Positions 31,697-39,395 of a DNA stretch of 43,788 bases are shown in pieces. Source of the DNA: Planctomycetes bacterium GWF2_42_9 (GTDB lineage: Bacteria > Planctomycetota > Phycisphaerae > Sedimentisphaerales > UBA12454). The position numbers and the translations under genes are program-made. The DNA lies in the NCBI GenBank assembly GCA_001825675.1, contig MHYA01000146.1, forward strand, positions 37,747-81,534. Reading direction: 5' to 3'. The notes under the pieces are model-generated. The model was not told where the DNA came from. It made no database searches and saw only the letters and a list, made by a program, of their open reading frames with translations. Position 1 is the stretch's first letter. Each line of letters begins with the position of its first letter.

Positions 31697-31825
31697 TTAA
31701 TCGCTTTGGCCATTAGCTTCGATTATATGTACCCGGTGTGTAAGCCTGTCGAGCAACGCCCCAGTGAGCCCCTCGGAGCCCAGCACTTCAGTCCAGCATG
31801 AACGGCAGATTGGTTGTCACAAATA
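31697..31825 (-). mobile_element. IstB (IS21 helper ATPase) C-terminal remnant
   Basis: The minus strand reads VTTNLPF, then after a 2-base deletion WTEVLGSEGLTGALLDRLTH and RVHIIEANGQSD followed by a stop at 31697. These are the final boxes of IstB (sensor and arginine-finger region DRL). The Walker motifs and istA are absent, so it is dead debris. Confidence 0.75.
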
Positions 31826-31877
31826 ATATTGGTGCGTTTATATGGCAGGATGACAACATCGAACAGTAATTCCGAAC

Positions 31878-32159
31878 CTATTTTATTATAAGTGAAGCAA
31901 TATTCGCCCAGACCGATGTCAATGATCCTTGCTGGCCGATCCTGGTTTCATCCTGGAACCAGACTTCGATAATTTGTCCGGGTTTTCCTGCCCGACTGTG
32001 TGGATAAAAGGGCGTCTTTAAGCTATTGATCCATTGCAGCGGCATAACAGTGTCTGTGGCCAGGATTTGGTTTAAGGCAGGCAAGCCCAAGGCTATAAAC
32101 TTGACGATCGTAAGCGAAAGGTTGGTCAGGAAATCAGCCAACTTACCTCTGGTAACCAT
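31878..32159 (-). mobile_element. IS630-family transposase remnant
   Basis: The frame includes QIIEVWFQDETRIGQQGSL and TSVWA, the IS630 catalytic box around the first Asp of the DDE triad (FQDE). Only this middle piece is intact; the frames before it (up to about 32300) are broken and the C-terminal part is replaced by the IstB remnant. The piece is inactive. Confidence 0.7.
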
Positions 32160-32627
32160 CCCCTGAGTGTCTCACGCTGCTCATCATTAAGCACGTTACT
32201 TTGTTGGTCAAATATTTCTTTGTCATACGGCAAGTCAACCAATAGTATTTCTAAAGCCTGAGCTAAATTGGCAGCATCACTTTTAGAAATTTCCTGCCCG
32301 TCATTACTATCATACGAACCATCCCAATCTTCAGACCCCCCTCACCATATCGTCATCGCTGTATTCTGCCGGACGAAAGCCATACTTTTTTCAAAAGTTG
32401 TTCCTACTTGTCCCAATCATATAACGAGCAACCTACCTTCATCTCTGTAGGGGAAGTTGAACTGTCAACCGCCTTGACAGTAGGAAATAAGATTTATCAA
32501 CATGTTGATAAAGCAAGGCAGCTTTTGATTTGTGCACAAAAGATAGAAGTGGAGCCATTAAGGAGATTAAAGAGGAGAAAATTTCCAGCAAATGAAAAGA
32601 GAATCTTCCTTTCTCTTAAAGTTCAAG

Positions 32628-32680
32628 ACATGTCGTCCTGAACACGAATGCCGACTCGTGTGTCGGCAACAACTACATGT
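32628..32680 (+). repeat. Stem-loop flanked by ACATGT boxes upstream of the ParB-like gene
   Basis: TGCCGAC (32649-32655) pairs with GTCGGCA (32662-32668) around a 6-base loop. Outside it ACATGT at 32628-32633 and at 32675-32680, plus GT and AC, extend the inverted symmetry. GTTAGCGGC follows at once. There is no U-run, so a simple terminator is unlikely. It could be a leader structure or a recombination site. Confidence 0.5.
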
Positions 32681-32724
32681 TAGCGGCAAATTATACCGCA
32701 ACATTAAAGGAAAGGAAGAAGAAA

Positions 32725-33765
32725 ATGTCGGATTCATTAAAATCTCAAATGGACTCATCTAGTCTGGAAATTTCAGAATCATCGGAACCCCAGGTGGTCA
32801 TCAACTTGGATCTTGATGCACTGCTGAATCAGTTTGGCGGTTTCAAACTTGGCACAGATCAGCAAGATGCCACAAGCCCAGAAGCAGAAAAGCAGCGAAA
32901 AGATGGTCATTTTGAAACCATCAAAACACAGTTACAAGCTGAAAACTATGTAGCACCGTTCAAAGTATATAGGGACGGTGACAAGCTTGTAATAATTGAT
33001 GGAAGACATGAAGAATTCGAAGCAGCAGAATCACTCGGACTCAAGATAACCTACCAACTTTATGATTGCATAAAAAATGTTGATGAAGCCAAGTCTTTCA
33101 TGATTCTGCAACTGCTTTCAAAGCCTAATTTCAGTGCGGCACAAAGAATGTTCATGGTTCTCAACCTTTCACATGTCTTCAGCACGAAAGGCAAAGCACA
33201 GCAAGGCACAAGAACAGATTTGAAACCTGATGTCTTGGAAAGCTTCAAACCCCATAATTCAAATTCGGAATGTGCTAAATTCGCCAATGTGGGTTTGGCT
33301 CGATGGAATGAGTTCAAGGCTCTTTGGAATGATCTTCAAAAGCCTGAAGGCAAATGCCATTTGGACAAAGAGAGAGTTAGGGATTTGCTCGAAGGTATTC
33401 GCACAGAGCAATTGTCAGTGCATGGTGCTTATGGCAAATTGAGAGATGCCCGCAAATCAAATAAGGAAAGAAACGATTTCAGTAAAAAAAATCCCTTAAA
33501 GGCGCCCGTAGCAGTTTCGGTTACGGCTGCGCCAGCCATTTCTAAAGCATCCGGTTCAGATAATGTTGCAACCAATAAGCACATGATGGTGTACCAGAAT
33601 TTTGACCTCACCAAAAGATATGAAAATACTGTCTCGTGCGGAAACAACATCGATGTTCTCAAAGCATTGCCTGACAACTCCGTTGACATGTGTTTATTTT
33701 CACCCGATTACAATGTAAATCTTTCCTATAACAACGAATGTGTTCACCTGCATCTACAACAATAG
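32725..33765 (+). CDS. ParB-like nuclease-domain/DNA methyltransferase fusion, 3'-truncated
   Basis: 346 residues from the ATG at 32725, which has AAGGAAAGGAAG upstream; the frame is open from 32677. Residues 75-110 carry the ParB/sulfiredoxin-type motif (PFKVYRDGDKLVIIDGRH, then EAAESLGL). A helical stretch with FSAAQRMFMVLNLSHVF follows, as in phage and island ParB proteins. From about 305 the start of an N4/N6 amino-methyltransferase appears: SCGNNIDVLKALPDNSVDMC, then LFSPDYN, the catalytic motif IV, but with D where a second P is usual. The frame then enters sequence antisense to the convergent nuclease gene and stops, so more than 200 residues of the methyltransferase are missing. It would originally modify DNA as part of a mobile element or a restriction-type system. 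Confidence 0.7.
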   Translation: MSDSLKSQMDSSSLEISESSEPQVVINLDLDALLNQFGGFKLGTDQQDATSPEAEKQRKDGHFETIKTQLQAENYVAPFKVYRDGDKLVIIDGRHEEFEAAESLGLKITYQLYDCIKNVDEAKSFMILQLLSKPNFSAAQRMFMVLNLSHVFSTKGKAQQGTRTDLKPDVLESFKPHNSNSECAKFANVGLARWNEFKALWNDLQKPEGKCHLDKERVRDLLEGIRTEQLSVHGAYGKLRDARKSNKERNDFSKKNPLKAPVAVSVTAAPAISKASGSDNVATNKHMMVYQNFDLTKRYENTVSCGNNIDVLKALPDNSVDMCLFSPDYNVNLSYNNECVHLHLQQ

Positions 33766-34048
33766 CAAAATATGGCACACATCCAAATGCTTCACAAGCA
33801 GCTGTTGCTTTGTCAAAATTCTCGTTAGATATTGTGAGATAAGTAGTTTCTTTTCCAATATTGCGACTTCTACTTTTAACTGAAATACCCATCACCTCAC
33901 CAGTGCATGTATTTTTGGCGATGATGTCAATACCCGTATGATCTACAAAAGCACATTCAAAACCGTATTTCGAAAGCCAGTAAAGCACAAGTGCCTCACC
34001 AAAATCACCTGTAATTTTTGAATGTCTTGAGCTTTTACTAAGTTCCAT
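33659..34048 (-). CDS. PD-(D/E)XK-like putative nuclease, 3'-truncated
   Basis: The likely start is the ATG at 34048 (MELSKSSRHSKITGDFGEA); the frame is open to 34141. The core has GDFGEALVLYWLSKYGFECA, then VDHTGIDIIAKN and GISVKSRSR, that is E, a D in GID, and the x-V-K of a PD-(D/E)XK or Holliday-resolvase-like fold, then CVPYFAIVVDAGEHIRCY. After that (about 33740) the frame runs antisense into the methyltransferase fragment and loses resemblance, so the last few dozen residues are foreign. Function as a DNA nuclease is inferred from the fold. It is downstream of the RT-nitrilase gene on the same strand and may once have formed a defence or element module with it. Confidence 0.55.
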   Translation of the reverse strand: MELSKSSRHSKITGDFGEALVLYWLSKYGFECAFVDHTGIDIIAKNTCTGEVMGISVKSRSRNIGKETTYLTISNENFDKATAACEAFGCVPYFAIVVDAGEHIRCYRKDLHCNRVKINTCQRSCQAML

Positions 34049-34088
34049 AATAACATGCTCTTTTTGGTTTATCACTTTTACCTCAAAT

Positions 34089-34193
34089 CTAAAATACGAT
34101 GCCTTCATATTTTGACGCACAGCCATGGCAACAATCATCACTGATAGTGCGATCCGAAATAAACTTCTGTTTGCAGTGTTTACAGGTAATCAA
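34089..34193 (-). CDS. Possible 34-residue zinc-ribbon protein
   Basis: A TTG start at 34193 with GGGAAGC about 8 bases before it opens a frame that reads ITCKHCKQKFISDRTISDDC, then CHGCASKYEGIVF. Two CxxC pairs (CKHC, CHGC) form a treble-clef or zinc-ribbon pattern. It sits between the RT-nitrilase stop (34243) and the PD-(D/E)XK-like start (34048) on the same strand. It may be a real small partner protein or a fragment of a larger gene. The cysteine pattern is the only evidence. Confidence 0.35.
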   Translation of the reverse strand: MITCKHCKQKFISDRTISDDCCHGCASKYEGIVF

Positions 34194-34242: not shown

Positions 34243-37200
34243 TTATCGATTTCTAGTTTGAACTTTGCACTTTCCACATTCATAGCACATATTTCGCTTT
34301 TTCATTATACCTGCTGGTGGAGTTTTATATTTCTTACATGATTTACTTCTTAAAGACGACAATGGAAGTTCCAAGAATTTGATAGAAATCTGATCCTCAC
34401 CATGTGAATGTATAATTGTGCGTTCGTGCCTCTCTGCAAATGGAGCTTGAGCAGTAGATCCTCCGTATAGGCCACTATTTGATATTATAATATGTTGATA
34501 CATATGATATCTTAATGCGGTTGCCATGTTGTCGAATAGGTCCACATTCTTATTGAGTGCCGAGATGATATAGCAGTTCGAAACATCTCTTAAATCCGCC
34601 GCCAAACGAATATCAGTTGCATCATAACATATTGATGCCGTGATTTTAAAAGGCTTGCAGCCTGGCCTATTTATGTCAACAATCCACTGGCATGGTCGAT
34701 AACCTTCTAGCCCTATTATGTCCGCTTCATCTTTAGCAAGATGCTGTTTACCTTGTCTTAAAATATCTAATGACCAAGATTCATTCTGTTGATGAGGTAT
34801 TATCCATATGCCTTCATTTACCAATTTATTTTTCTTTAACGAATGGCAATGATAGATCAAACCACCAAAAATAATGCATTTGTAGTTAATTGCTAATTTA
34901 GTCAAACTGTAAACATCTTCAGGATGGATCGATAATTCAGGCAGGACAATTAAATCAACATACTGTGAACCTAATATACTAGGCGTATGTGTCTTCCTCG
35001 CCCTAAACATTGAATCAATGCACTTGAGCACTGTCATGAAATGGTTTCTCTGTCTGTGACGAATAGCTTGGTCGTTGATTTCTGGAGATTCTTCCAGTTC
35101 TGATGGAGATGGCAAAACAGTTTGCACTAATGCTATCTTGAATCTGTTATTTTGTAATTGGCTTGTTATGGGAAATTCAATAATAGGTAGTAACGAGTGC
35201 TTAGCATATGTTTGGGTGAGTATTTTAACTCTCTCATTGATAAGTTTTTTGAATTCGTTAAGCGTTTTAAAATGAATGCCGAAAGAACTACGTATTTCCT
35301 GCCCTGGCCACGTTAATAGTATAGAGATTAGCTCAGTAATCCATGGCGAAATAGGAATGTCCGATGTACCAAGCCAACTTCTTCCCATAAACATGCCAAA
35401 TTGCCTTCGATACCATGTTGTTTTGATGCCATAATACCTACGCTCAATAAGTTTCAGGCTTGGTTCTATGAAGCGATAGCTGCTATCCGCCATACCTGTA
35501 ATTGCAGATCGCATAAGCTGACCTATGGCTTTTTTCCATCTTAAATTATCTGGTAGCCACTCTGATTGTTTAAATCTGATATCAGTAGTGCCTTTTCGAA
35601 TCGATACACTTAAATCGCAGTCCTTACATGGATTGCAAATGGCATCCCAATCTTGAGATTCTAATATCAGATTGCTTGGTGATATCATATCCATTGATGA
35701 CCAAAGAGATGGCCATACCTTTAGTATAGCTGTCACTAGTCTCAGTAAACCAACCTCATGGCGGAAGGGATTTAGTTCTTGATTCGACACATCTAACAGT
35801 GAAATAGCGTGCTGTATGCTTTTTTCTTTGGATGTTTTTATGTATGAAGATGCAATTGTTCTGACAGGCCCTTTAGAATATTTCCAAATAGTACTACTTA
35901 ATTCAGGACATTCAGAAATGACAGTCGACAAGTAGTAATGGCGCATATCTGGAGATGATAAATTTTCCATTAATAGGCACAATGACTTTCCGTATTTTGC
36001 CCGATTACCCTGGATACGAAATCCAAGCAAAAGAAGAGCAAATGTGTTTAACAGTTCATCAGAACCACTATGCATTGGCATAGCAATACTATCAGATTTA
36101 AGTATTACGTGAAGAGACGAATAAATATTGGCATGTTTCAAATTGATGACAGGCTCGTCTTGTAACGCCAAATAAAGCAGTAATTGTTGCTGTACATACC
36201 ATGGCAGCGTGTCTGCTTTAAGCATATCCCTTGCAAATACTGATAAGCTATTTCTGAAATCATCAATGTTAACATGGTCTCCACGAGGCAACTCTTCCGC
36301 ATCATGCACAAAACCAATCTGGGTTGCTCCAGCTCGATATATTTCCGAAATACAATAGTAGCAGGTCATCTGAATATTCTGCGATCCTTTCAAATGTGTC
36401 TTGATCAAGTCCAAAACTGTTTTCAGCACTTGGTGGTTTGGGCAAATATCGAAAGCAATACTGAGTAATCTTATATTAGAGGGATCTTCTATGAATTTTG
36501 CTACTAACTTTCTTGCAATGATATCCATTTTAGCATCCACATCTGTTCTGGATATTTCTTTGGATGCTTGTTCGTCATTACTAAGAACTCTCACAAGGCG
36601 AAGGGTCTTTTTAAGACGATGAGCTGCAAATCTGCGTATTGTATCATTTTTTACATCAGGCTTTAAGTCAACCAAACGGATAATTTCATCATCATCTCGC
36701 TTCTTTCGAGTGGCGGCAACGTCTAATAGACCTTGAAGCGTTTCTGTCGTTTCCCAAGCTGTTTGAATATCCATTGGTCCAGATATTTTGTTTTGCGTAT
36801 GTTCCATAGTCCTTGAAATAGGAAGCTTATTCTCTGTCTGCCAACTGCAAATGAATGAGGTTTTATCCCTGTTTACAAGAAGTCCAGGTGCATTCCGCAA
36901 TAAGACTTTGTCACTCAACTGAATAAATTGATCGGTTGGCGGACTTTGATCAGACTTATCTGCGACAAGGATGAATCGCATATCATCCACATAGCGGCAA
37001 TAATCATATACCACCCAATTAGTTTGAGGGATTTTAGTGTCTACCAATCCTGTTATTGCACGATCGAAATCTAATAAAACAATATTGGCAAAAAACCCTG
37101 ATGCAACAAGGCCTTGTGGCAAAGCCAAAGGCTTACTACTCTCAATTTCCAGGGCGCTGCAAGACTTGATTGTACGTATGCTTTCGGAATCCCACCTCCA

Positions 37201-37932
37201 AGAAAACAGATTTTGGAAAAACCTAAAAAACTCAGAACATTCACTCTTTGAATGCATGTTAAACAAGGATGCCGTTTTTTCATGCAGAAGTTTTGTATCT
37301 ACTCGATCAAAAAATTGAGACAAATCCATCTGCACCTCAATCCAACTTTTTCCTTTATTGATCAGATGTTTTTTCCAATAATCAGATCTGCTAATGAAGC
37401 GTCTATAATCTTGATAAAACTTGCTATAACAATCCATGTTGCCCCATCCAAAGTGAGCTTCATCGTTGTTCCACGTACAATGGAGTCTATTGCCGTAACT
37501 TACCATGCCTGTCTTTCGTATAGCATCATACGCTTGATCAGTTTTCCCCTGACGGGTTTCAGCAATGTCAGCAAGACACATCATACATGCCACAGCAAGT
37601 GTCTGCTCTCTGATTGAGACATGTGCCAAAGGCCTTAACCGGGCATTGTCCTCTTCTCGCCAACCCTCATTCTTAACATATTCCAGAGTATTGGCCTTTG
37701 GTGCAGGTACAAGTCTTATTTCTGAAGGTCGAAAGTTCTTATGCTCAATAAGCGACCATTCTTTCATCAAAAAAGGCAATCGAATTGTCGATGTATCAAG
37801 CTCAAGAGTGTCCGCATACCAGTTATGGCTCCGAACGTATTGTTGCGCCTTTTTCCATGCCTGAATCAAAATGTAATCCTTTTTTAACCATTTGATATCA
37901 GGCCCTAATCTTATATTTTGAAAATTTTCCAA
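34243..37932 (-). CDS. Reverse transcriptase-nitrilase fusion, defence-associated RT (DRT type 1/UG1-like)
   Basis: 1229 residues, full length. The RT palm lies at about 70-380: motif A VQMDLSQFFDRVD (D203), motif B ALPQGLVASGFFANI (271-282) and motif C YCRYVDDMRF (D316, D317), so all three metal-binding aspartates are present. Residues 390-910 are helical, HEAT-like and of unknown role. The nitrilase domain spans about 928-1195: FKIALVQTV, VLPELS (E999), RQGKQHL (K1062) and ASICYDATD (C1102), a complete Glu-Lys-Cys triad. It ends in a short CxxC tail. This fusion is the hallmark of DRT type 1 (UG1), an anti-phage group; the assignment rests on layout, not a search. No accessory gene is required in that type. 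Two sRNA-like genes lie directly upstream on the same strand. Confidence 0.85.
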   Translation of the reverse strand: MENFQNIRLGPDIKWLKKDYILIQAWKKAQQYVRSHNWYADTLELDTSTIRLPFLMKEWSLIEHKNFRPSEIRLVPAPKANTLEYVKNEGWREEDNARLRPLAHVSIREQTLAVACMMCLADIAETRQGKTDQAYDAIRKTGMVSYGNRLHCTWNNDEAHFGWGNMDCYSKFYQDYRRFISRSDYWKKHLINKGKSWIEVQMDLSQFFDRVDTKLLHEKTASLFNMHSKSECSEFFRFFQNLFSWRWDSESIRTIKSCSALEIESSKPLALPQGLVASGFFANIVLLDFDRAITGLVDTKIPQTNWVVYDYCRYVDDMRFILVADKSDQSPPTDQFIQLSDKVLLRNAPGLLVNRDKTSFICSWQTENKLPISRTMEHTQNKISGPMDIQTAWETTETLQGLLDVAATRKKRDDDEIIRLVDLKPDVKNDTIRRFAAHRLKKTLRLVRVLSNDEQASKEISRTDVDAKMDIIARKLVAKFIEDPSNIRLLSIAFDICPNHQVLKTVLDLIKTHLKGSQNIQMTCYYCISEIYRAGATQIGFVHDAEELPRGDHVNIDDFRNSLSVFARDMLKADTLPWYVQQQLLLYLALQDEPVINLKHANIYSSLHVILKSDSIAMPMHSGSDELLNTFALLLLGFRIQGNRAKYGKSLCLLMENLSSPDMRHYYLSTVISECPELSSTIWKYSKGPVRTIASSYIKTSKEKSIQHAISLLDVSNQELNPFRHEVGLLRLVTAILKVWPSLWSSMDMISPSNLILESQDWDAICNPCKDCDLSVSIRKGTTDIRFKQSEWLPDNLRWKKAIGQLMRSAITGMADSSYRFIEPSLKLIERRYYGIKTTWYRRQFGMFMGRSWLGTSDIPISPWITELISILLTWPGQEIRSSFGIHFKTLNEFKKLINERVKILTQTYAKHSLLPIIEFPITSQLQNNRFKIALVQTVLPSPSELEESPEINDQAIRHRQRNHFMTVLKCIDSMFRARKTHTPSILGSQYVDLIVLPELSIHPEDVYSLTKLAINYKCIIFGGLIYHCHSLKKNKLVNEGIWIIPHQQNESWSLDILRQGKQHLAKDEADIIGLEGYRPCQWIVDINRPGCKPFKITASICYDATDIRLAADLRDVSNCYIISALNKNVDLFDNMATALRYHMYQHIIISNSGLYGGSTAQAPFAERHERTIIHSHGEDQISIKFLELPLSSLRSKSCKKYKTPPAGIMKKRNMCYECGKCKVQTRNR

Positions 37933-38174
37933 GGTTACAAAGTCACTTTCGAATTTAAACGATTGGATTTCATGGTAAAGATTACTTGCAATTTGGCTAT
38001 GGCAAGCCTAAAAGCGGACATGATTATAACTGTTAGTTGAATTGTGGGCAATGCAATACTGAATTTCTGTATTTACTAAAAATTTTTTCGTAACTTGGCG
38101 AAGCCATTTCCGTCATATCTATCGATACCTGGTCGATTCTGGTGCGTCTGGGTCGGGTCTGAATGAGTCGCAAC
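37933..38174 (-). other. RT leader/promoter region
   Basis: No gene or repeat is seen. It should contain the RT promoter, which I cannot pin down; the sequence is AT-rich. The homology between the two sRNA-like modules extends a short way into its upstream border (near 38140-38174). Confidence 0.4.
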
Positions 38175-38335
38175 AAAAAAGAGAAGCACTCTTTAAAGTA
38201 CCTCTCTTTTTCTGGAGGAGGAGGAAGAAAATTGTTTCTAAAAATTCTACGCCATGAGTTGCCCATTGTTCAAAACCGATTTTTGCCATTTACTCAGCCT
38301 AGCAGATCATTAGGATCGCCTGCCTCATTCGCCCT
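38175..38335 (-). ncRNA. Candidate small RNA copy 1 with anti-Shine-Dalgarno motif
   Basis: Read on the minus strand, a -10 TATAAC (38342-38347) precedes a start near 38335. The RNA then has GAGGGCGAATGAGGCAGG, a middle block GGCGTAGAATTTTTAGAA and CCTCCTCCTCC (38214-38224). It ends in a hairpin with AGAGAGGTACT and AGTGCTTCTCT arms and six U (38175-38180). The hairpin has two mismatches as plus-strand RNA but only G-U wobbles as minus-strand RNA, which fixes the strand. The length is about 160 nt. The C-rich motif is complementary to ribosome-binding sites, as in anti-SD trans-acting sRNAs such as the CcsR or cuckoo RNAs of alphaproteobacteria. The function is inferred. Confidence 0.5.
38180..38207 (-). 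terminator. Intrinsic terminator of sRNA copy 1
   Basis: Eleven-base arms (38180-38190 and 38197-38207) with a 6-base loop, followed on the minus strand by six U at 38175-38180. Pairing is complete only if G-U wobbles of the minus-strand transcript are allowed. Confidence 0.7.
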
Positions 38336-38402
38336 CGTTCAGTTATAAAAAGCGATCCTGAGTCACCTTGGTAAGCCTGGGTGGCTCTGGATGGGGCGCA
38401 AT

Positions 38403-38606
38403 AAAAAAGAAGCACTCGGTAAAGTGCTTCTCGTTTTAGGGGAGGAGGAAAACTCTTCTAATATCTTTACGCTACTTACCTTCTGCTGTTCATATTTGGG
38501 TACTAGAAGCATCCGAAAAGGTTTTCGTTTTCCGCTTTATGTTTTTATCCAAACTGAGTCTGATTGTGATCACAGATTAACTAGGACCTCCTGCCTGATT
38601 CATCCC
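38403..38606 (-). ncRNA. Candidate small RNA copy 2 with anti-Shine-Dalgarno motif
   Basis: This is a diverged tandem copy of the 38175-38335 module. On the minus strand a -35-like TTGTTT (38637-38642), an 18-bp spacer and TATTAA (38613-38618) place the start near 38606. The RNA has GAGGGATGAATCAGGCAGG, a middle block TAGCGTAAAGATATTAGAA and CCTCCTCCCC (38439-38448). A perfect 9-bp terminator hairpin and six U (38403-38408) follow. The conserved blocks are in the same order as in copy 1, and homology continues past the terminator (TTGCGAC and ATTGCGC). The length is about 200 nt because the region between the 5' and middle blocks is longer. The exact CCUCCUCCC motif is the same as the one that names the CcsR RNAs. 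Confidence 0.5.
38408..38431 (-). terminator. Intrinsic terminator of sRNA copy 2
   Basis: AGAAGCACT (38408-38416) and AGTGCTTCT (38423-38431) form a perfect 9-bp stem with a 6-base loop. On the minus strand six U follow (38403-38408). This is a textbook Rho-independent terminator. Confidence 0.8.
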
Positions 38607-38792
38607 TCATTTTTAATATCAAAAAATGTGTTTTAAAAACAAATCCCAGACAAGAATGGCACACAGTTGGCACTGGCTTCAGGAATGACAAGTACGCCCG
38701 TTTGCCGCCAGAGGACAAAATTCGCTCGTTTTTGAGCAGCTTGAGAGGAGGGAAACTGTTGTAAGTAATTGATGTTGAAGGAGTAAAGAAAA

Positions 38793-38834
38793 TGGGCGAT
38801 TAGGGACTCGAACCCCAGACCCCCTGCGTGTAAA
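38793..38834 (-). other. Attachment-site scar: 3' half of a tRNA-Val(UAC) gene
   Basis: The minus strand carries the tRNA-Val 3' part: an anticodon-loop remnant TTTACAC (anticodon UAC at 38830-38832), the 3' anticodon arm GCAGG, the variable region, the T arm with GGTTCGAGTCC, and the acceptor strand ATCGCCC plus discriminator A at 38793. The 5' half (acceptor, D arm, 5' anticodon arm) is absent, so it is not a working tRNA. Such fragments are left where tyrosine-recombinase elements insert into the 3' half of a tRNA gene. The fragment's 3' end points left, so the displaced chromosomal side is left and the element is to the right of 38834. The crossover lies at or next to the anticodon loop. 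Confidence 0.8.
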
Positions 38835-39395
38835 AACGAAGCTCCTCTTGTAAGTTCCTGTCTTTAAATGAGTTATAAGCTGTTTTTGAGCGTAAAAACT
38901 GATTACCGACTCATTGCCGACTGGCTGCTAGTTCAATGCCTACTCACAACCCATTGATGATTTACGCTGGATTTACGCCCAAAATCAGGATGATGTAGGC
39001 TCATTTTAACCGATCTTCCCCCTTACCCATTCCCCAAACCCTCTCCAAAGGGTGAAATGACATCTTAGACCAGCGTGGATGATGCCGTATTCAGGGCAAA
39101 TGGACGGCTGGCATGCATTCGAACTAGGAACCACCGTCACTCATGGCTCTTAGAGGTTGCAAAGGTTGTTAAGGGGGTAAAGTTTTCAAAAGTTTTTGAC
39201 TATACGGCTTCTAGCAGTTTAGGTGTTTTAGGGAAAGTTTTTAGAACTCAACCAACCTTTCCAACCTTAACAACCCAAAATATTGAAAACTCATTAGGTC
39301 TGTGAGTTTGTACACAACTTGACGACCTGCAAGATTATTGTTGTCTTTTTCTGCCGTAAATAGGATAATATCCTCGACAATTGAATAATATGAAA
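38835..39395. other. Non-coding element end with arm-like repeats
   Basis: No gene is visible. Next to the attachment scar GCGTAAA (38890-38896) is the inverse of TTTACGC at 38961-38967 and 38972-38978, which are 11 bp apart. CCGACT occurs at 38906-38911 and 38917-38922, also 11 bp apart. Helically phased short repeats inside an element end are what integrase arm-binding sites look like; this is inference. Further right 39155-39275 holds another repeat set. Confidence 0.45.
39155..39275. repeat. Inverted and direct GGTTGnnAAGG repeats
   Basis: GGTTGCAAAGGTTGTTAAGG (39155-39174) on the plus strand faces CCTTTCCAACCTTAACAACC (39256-39275). The exact 11-mer GGTTGTTAAGG and its inverse lie about 90 bp apart, and each arm is itself made of two or three GGTTGnnAAGG units spaced about 9-10 bp. 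This suggests protein-binding sites near the element end. Confidence 0.55.

Follow-up and report, generated by a model that had tools for sequence, protein, structure and literature searches.

The window, i.e., the whole stretch of 43,788 nt that was analyzed here, contains two diverged units on the minus strand, arranged head to tail with a spacing of about 225 nt and extending from 38.64 to 38.17 kb (Table 1). A repeat finder independently recovers both units as direct repeats (families of 35 nt and 22 nt, spacing 224–226). Each unit ends with a CCTCCTCC run followed by a hairpin and U6, i.e., an anti-Shine-Dalgarno (anti-SD) motif and an intrinsic terminator, as the initial annotation had read them. 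The gene located 240 nt downstream on the same strand, previously described as an RT-nitrilase gene, is indeed a DRT1a/UG1 gene (PADLOC Drt1a, 1245 bits).

Table 1. Position of the tandem units and of neighboring features in the window
Feature	Position	Strand	Basis or remark
Predicted proximal sRNA, about 67 nt: short leader, CCUCCUCCUCC and terminator	38174–38240	-	Model R3, E 2.6e-15, own genome; fold accessibility; predicted start site
Predicted distal sRNA, about 58 nt: short leader, CCUCCUCCCC and terminator	38403–38460	-	Model R3, E 1.9e-8; predicted start site
Anti-SD stretch (CCTCCTCC run), proximal copy	38214–38224	-	Sequence; motif almost invariant among 31 members
Anti-SD stretch (CCTCCTCC run), distal copy	38439–38448	-	Sequence
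Intrinsic terminator, proximal	38174–38212	-	z -5.06 on the minus strand vs -0.79 on the plus strand
Intrinsic terminator, distal	38403–38432	-	z -5.87 on the minus strand
Promoter-like GAAC-N16-CGTA, proximal copy	38248–38271	-	Spacing of 16/17 conserved in the family
Promoter-like GAAC-N16-CGTA, distal copy	38468–38491	-	Spacing of 16/17 conserved in the family
5' block GAGGG..AGGCAGG, distal	38565–38608	-	Upstream of the probable promoter; repeat that recurs at C146:1545-1667 and C146:36117-36178
5' block, proximal, diverged	38311–38336	-	Sequence pattern search
Transposon-end-like repeat with GTGCCA motifs	38647–38710	-	Also present elsewhere on the contig, behind the degenerate 3' end of a DDE transposase
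att-like tRNA 3'-end fragment (38830–38793) with flank	38751–38834	-	97.6% identity to the C88 site after a tyrosine recombinase
DRT1 (UG1 RT-nitrilase)	34243–37932	-	PADLOC PDLC03745, 1245 bits; neighbor by position

Compared with dinucleotide shuffles, both hairpins are stable on the minus strand (z -5.9 and -5.1); those of the two copies show a 2-nt frame offset relative to each other. The strand had been deduced from G-U wobbles, an argument that holds because the plus-strand version of the 38.2-kb hairpin does not outperform shuffles (z -0.8). Terminator aside, shuffles fold as well as the long 160–200 nt units. No Pfam family matches the plus-strand frames at 38163 and 38391, which the initial annotation had considered as possible conserved proteins. 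A protein reading of two minus-strand small ORFs was also rejected, as their shared frame shows no third-position bias (judged by eye) and they have no Pfam match.

An order-wide family of putative small RNAs

When 98 relatives and 161 genomes of the order were searched by blastn with the whole unit, no homologue was convincing. Although this suggested that conserved homologues are lacking, the covariance-model search from both copies proposed in the initial annotation found relatives across the order. A model built from the two window units only (R1) was run over 159 genomes of the order and gave weak matches, the stronger distant loci including L147, L148 and L150 (E 7e-4 to 3e-3). In these three loci and in several weaker matches, CTCCTCC/CCTCCTCC is found immediately 5' of a terminator. 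A model of this tail based on six sequences (R2) retrieved many further independent members (E 1e-9 to 1e-4). With a 31-sequence model (R3), matches were found in 44 of the 159 genomes at E<=1e-3 and in 30 of them at E<=1e-5, bearing in mind that the E-values of the covariance searches come from a shortened calibration, that the search itself favors the GAAC/GTA columns and that the R3 matches become weak beyond the window's family and two others. The positive genomes include 11 of the 13 that belong to the window's family, and four of the 30 (G003, G006, G009 and G010; E 1.8e-9 to 9e-8) were outside model building. As a negative control, 392 genomes from across the phylum were searched, and no match outside the order was stronger than E 4.8e-5. 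Some candidates were discarded: a weak further match in the window's own genome (contig C101) overlaps a coding gene, and two pattern matches in viral contigs lie inside coding genes.

No Rfam match was obtained in the window at gathering scores. A cmscan with an E-value threshold on positions 38000–38950 and on 10 member loci gave no meaningful match and no anti-SD sRNA family. Its full-length match of Listeria sbrA (RF01489) to 38174–38247 of the minus strand (17.8 bits for a gathering score of 45, E 0.96) is attributable to chance. As far as sequence comparison can tell, the 3' part of each window unit thus belongs to an order-wide family of putative RNAs that is absent from Rfam.

The members share a common pattern: GAAC-N16/17-(C/A)GTA, a short leader, CCUCCUCC(UUCA) and a covarying terminator. 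A rough consensus can be written as CGAACAAA-N-GGCGUAAUAUU-N-GUAGAA-N-CUCAUCCUCCUCCUUCAAAAAAUAAAGGGG-terminator. The CCUCCUCC motif is nearly invariant among the 31 members, and UUCUUCCUCCUCC is identical in all 12 aligned core copies. Compensatory changes, on which the initial annotation had made its folds depend, affect 6 of the 11 pairs of the terminator stem in one group and 3 of 15 pairs in a group of very similar core sequences.

In most members analyzed, a spacer of 16 or 17 nt with a divergent sequence lies between GAAC and (C/A)GTA, and the CCUCC run lies 11–22 nt 3' of the predicted start region. The core copies of the window's family harbor AGTA rather than CGTA as -10, and the GAAC/GTA pair is degraded in some core copies (G003, G006, G009 and G010). 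AAC and CGT at such a spacing are hallmarks of ECF sigma-factor promoters. The conserved GAAC-N16/17-CGTA would therefore most resemble a promoter recognized by an ECF-type stress sigma factor; an overlapping -10 of the sigma-70 type (TAnnnT) is possible. Genome-wide, GAACAA-N14/15-CGTA is not enriched (14 sites vs 31 for the control), so that these counts reveal no regulon of that promoter.

At several loci, the sRNA and the gene upstream of it (groES in the window's family) point away from each other, which implies that the sRNA must have its own promoter. This bears on the proposal that CCUCCUCC and the terminator are only a 3'-end feature of longer transcripts, either a 3' UTR-derived RNA or a termination signal. 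The motif is always immediately 5' of the terminator and, at L180 and L185, a gene of the same strand ends about 90–100 nt upstream, as this proposal would predict. It is nevertheless improbable, since a divergent gene lies upstream at L179, L182, L183 and L188 as well as in the window's family, and since the spaced GAAC..GTA pair is conserved a short distance upstream of the motif.

The initial annotation assigned 160–200 nt to each RNA and made the GAGGG..AGGCAGG block its 5' part. This block is present in both copies, but its inclusion in the RNA is probably wrong: the comparative data place it upstream of the probable promoter, which would reduce the RNA to about 60–70 nt. Predicted transcripts were folded as 64–81 nt molecules that include a few nt past the U run. 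In these molecules, the anti-SD motif is 90% unpaired on average (proximal 0.86, distal 0.53) and belongs to a largely unpaired leader, the terminator being the only stable hairpin. In the predicted fold of the 160–200 nt version, CCUCCUCC is 15–23% unpaired and mostly paired with the 5' block. The RNA is likely about 60–80 nt long, with an anti-SD that is predicted to be exposed.

Core copies, accessory copies and their genomic context

The family is usually present as a single copy per genome. Nearly all genomes of the window's family have a core copy, which is located beside groES and topA wherever its neighbors were read and, in the relatives of the window's genome, between these two genes. 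In another family, the RNA lies opposite to a histidine kinase gene and converges with it. None of this synteny played a part in the covariance searches. At four core loci (L204, L190, L192 and L197), TTTGTCCAG..TAAATACCCC is conserved between the divergent groES and the sRNA and is possibly a groES control region. The window's own genome already has a core copy, which adjoins topA on contig C114, and the window pair therefore corresponds to extra (accessory) copies. Such extra copies also occur in G007, G013, G528 and G005. A weakly supported tree from about 100 nt puts the window pair with the extra copies of G007 and G013, and the window pair, L147 and L148 apart from the core copies, which hints that accessory copies may form a separate group.

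The 5' block is a mobile-element repeat located upstream of the probable promoter. GAGGG..AGGCAGG..TCCTA is found at four sites of the 4.86-Mb genome, all on the window's contig, and its exact patterns were not found in the viral contigs. Three of these four copies are preceded by a GTGCCA-rich repeat which, at two of the three loci, follows the 3' end of a degenerate DDE transposase gene (rve_3, E 5e-4 for the copy at 36 kb of C146). In two places, the GTGCCA-rich repeat adjoins the tRNA 3'-end fragment. The copy of the 5' block at C146:1545 is cut beside an IS110 transposase gene. Altogether, the tRNA-att, transposon-end and IS repeats of the contig show the DRT1 island to be a mosaic of mobile-element ends, with which the 5' block moves.

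Several other traces of mobile or degraded genes were observed. The 84-bp att-like tRNA 3'-end site is found at three places, one of which (C88:24312-24395 of genome G000; L030) directly follows the gene of a 313-aa tyrosine recombinase; the DRT1 island may thus be one product of that integrase. At C146:278-1667 (L009), a third copy of the distal unit is interrupted behind GATGCTTCTAG by an IS110-family transposase gene with a noncoding left end of about 230 nt. Within the island, the frame at 32677–33765 has a C-terminal end that matches the start of DNA methyltransferases and is then cut off, i.e., a broken methylase gene. Degenerate frames with many stops at 31700–32160 resemble the IS21 helper IstB (by eye). 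Right behind DRT1, the reverse-strand frame at 33659–34141 resembles Mrr-type restriction endonucleases very faintly (E 0.016). The window also encodes DUF1559 and PEP-CTERM proteins, which point to a planctomycete affiliation.

In such a context, the units could be decayed, non-functional repeats that hitch-hike on mobile DNA, as suggested by the repetition of the 5' block on the contig and by the interruption of one copy by an IS110 element. This is rather unlikely: in spite of their divergence, both window copies keep the promoter-like pair, the anti-SD and the terminator, and the G-U replacements in the hairpin preserve pairing on the transcribed strand.

Relationship with the DRT1 gene

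The YVDD motif of DRT1 as well as E999, K1062 and C1102 are invariant in a six-sequence alignment, the three latter residues being consistent with a nitrilase triad. The initial annotation had raised the possibility that the units provide the RT with a partner or template RNA, as for other defense RTs (the ncRNAs of DRT2, DRT9 and DRT10 are such cases); the position of the units directly upstream of the RT gene and on the same strand fits this idea. Other DRT1 loci were compared, 80 from named genome contigs and 3 from viral contigs, plasmids and relatives being also collected (a scan with a single DRT1 sequence gave nothing, whereas an alignment query gave the 80 loci). R1 has no significant match at any of these 83 loci, and the relatives of the units are found near groES or topA instead of RT genes. 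Of 82 DRT1 genes, 5 have a CCTCCTC-like 7-mer in the 700 nt that precede them, which equals the 5% background (940 windows), and the nearest upstream ORF of other DRT1 genes is at a median distance of 150 nt. Furthermore, published work indicates that DRT1 synthesizes DNA without template and is active with RNase A present (PMC13275509). A role as partner or template of the RT is thus extremely improbable.

The sRNAs could also be private regulators of the island, specific to the DRT1 gene or to the mobile element, as they are linked to DRT1 and as the window copies are the only ones on the island. This too has little probability. The DRT1 leader contains neither GAGG nor GGAGG, and the duplex predicted between this leader and the proximal sRNA (-6.1 kcal/mol) ranks with the weaker ones when 22 window genes are compared, so that DRT1 is not an obvious target; moreover, the family is conserved at loci remote from any DRT1 gene. 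The accessory copies beside DRT1 also serve as a warning that position alone cannot assign an RNA to a defense RT.

Proposed function and comparison with known RNAs

The two window copies are probably accessory genes within an order-wide family of trans-acting anti-SD sRNAs, for which the following scheme can be outlined. The conserved GAAC-N16/17-CGTA promoter would set the start of a short unstructured leader. This leader would expose CCUCCUCC, and the intrinsic terminator would end the RNA after about 60–80 nt. The exposed CCUCCUCC would then pair with the Shine-Dalgarno (GGAGG) of many mRNAs, thereby blocking the initiation of translation. The window copies would have been captured and duplicated at the end of a mobile element on which DRT1 is found as well.

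Strong SDs precede some window genes, e.g., AAAAAGGAGGAUGAAGAUG, and the duplexes predicted between the sRNA and SD-bearing leaders of the window reach -20.8 kcal/mol. In these models, the anti-SD is both accessible and complementary to SDs of genes of the same genome. Together with the presence of the CCUCCUCC-terminator part in an order-wide family and its predicted unpaired state, this favors the initial suggestion that these small RNAs control translation by means of an anti-SD. No anti-SD RNA could be simpler than an exposed CCUCCUCC followed by a terminator. A core RNA gene beside groES and topA, an invariant SD complement and a conserved, presumed stress-type promoter suggest a general translation brake that would have arisen independently of the alphaproteobacterial ones and would be induced by stress. 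A bolder and rather unlikely proposal is that tandem accessory copies of the family, possibly under an ECF-type stress sigma factor, were captured by the mobile defense island, so that infection or stress sensed by the island would also trigger a global brake on SD-dependent translation.

The ncRNAs of DRT2, DRT9 and DRT10 are similar to the window units in that a small RNA gene adjoins a defense RT. The difference is that the window RNA does not accompany DRT1 across loci and that DRT1 works without an RNA template. The CcsR/cuckoo RNAs, exemplified by those of Rhodobacter sphaeroides, provide a closer parallel: these RNAs are short, occur in tandem and presumably act in the stress control of many mRNAs. 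CcsR RNAs reportedly carry an anti-SD run of the CCUCCUCC type. The likeness to them claimed in the initial annotation is borne out for the CCUCCUCC(C) motif, which is found in both window copies and nearly invariant in the 31 members, but does not extend to membership: there is no Rfam match, the motif is not displayed by hairpins of its own in the predicted short transcripts, and the ORFs at the window units and those scanned at core loci have no Pfam match to DUF1127 (CIN1 locus). In alphaproteobacteria, RNase E releases the CcsR RNAs from a ccaF1 (DUF1127)-CcsR transcript, with an RpoHI/RpoHII promoter in front and a Rho-independent terminator behind (PMC10253847). By contrast, each window unit has its own promoter-like pair and its own terminator, the conserved spaced pair is a different, ECF-like one, and the family is usually single-copy and confined to another order. 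In alpha-r14/NfeR1, ultraconserved CCUCCUCCC anti-SD seeds silence mRNAs at the ribosome site, and NfeR1 has three hairpins with one motif on each (PMC10746234). The RNAs described here would differ by one motif, a linear leader and a single terminator, and have no match to such families in Rfam. No anti-SD small RNA of such anatomy was found in the open-access literature, and none from planctomycetes either. On sequence grounds, these RNAs form a previously uncatalogued family of putative anti-SD sRNAs that is analogous to the cuckoo, CcsR and alpha-r14 RNAs without being a member of any of them.
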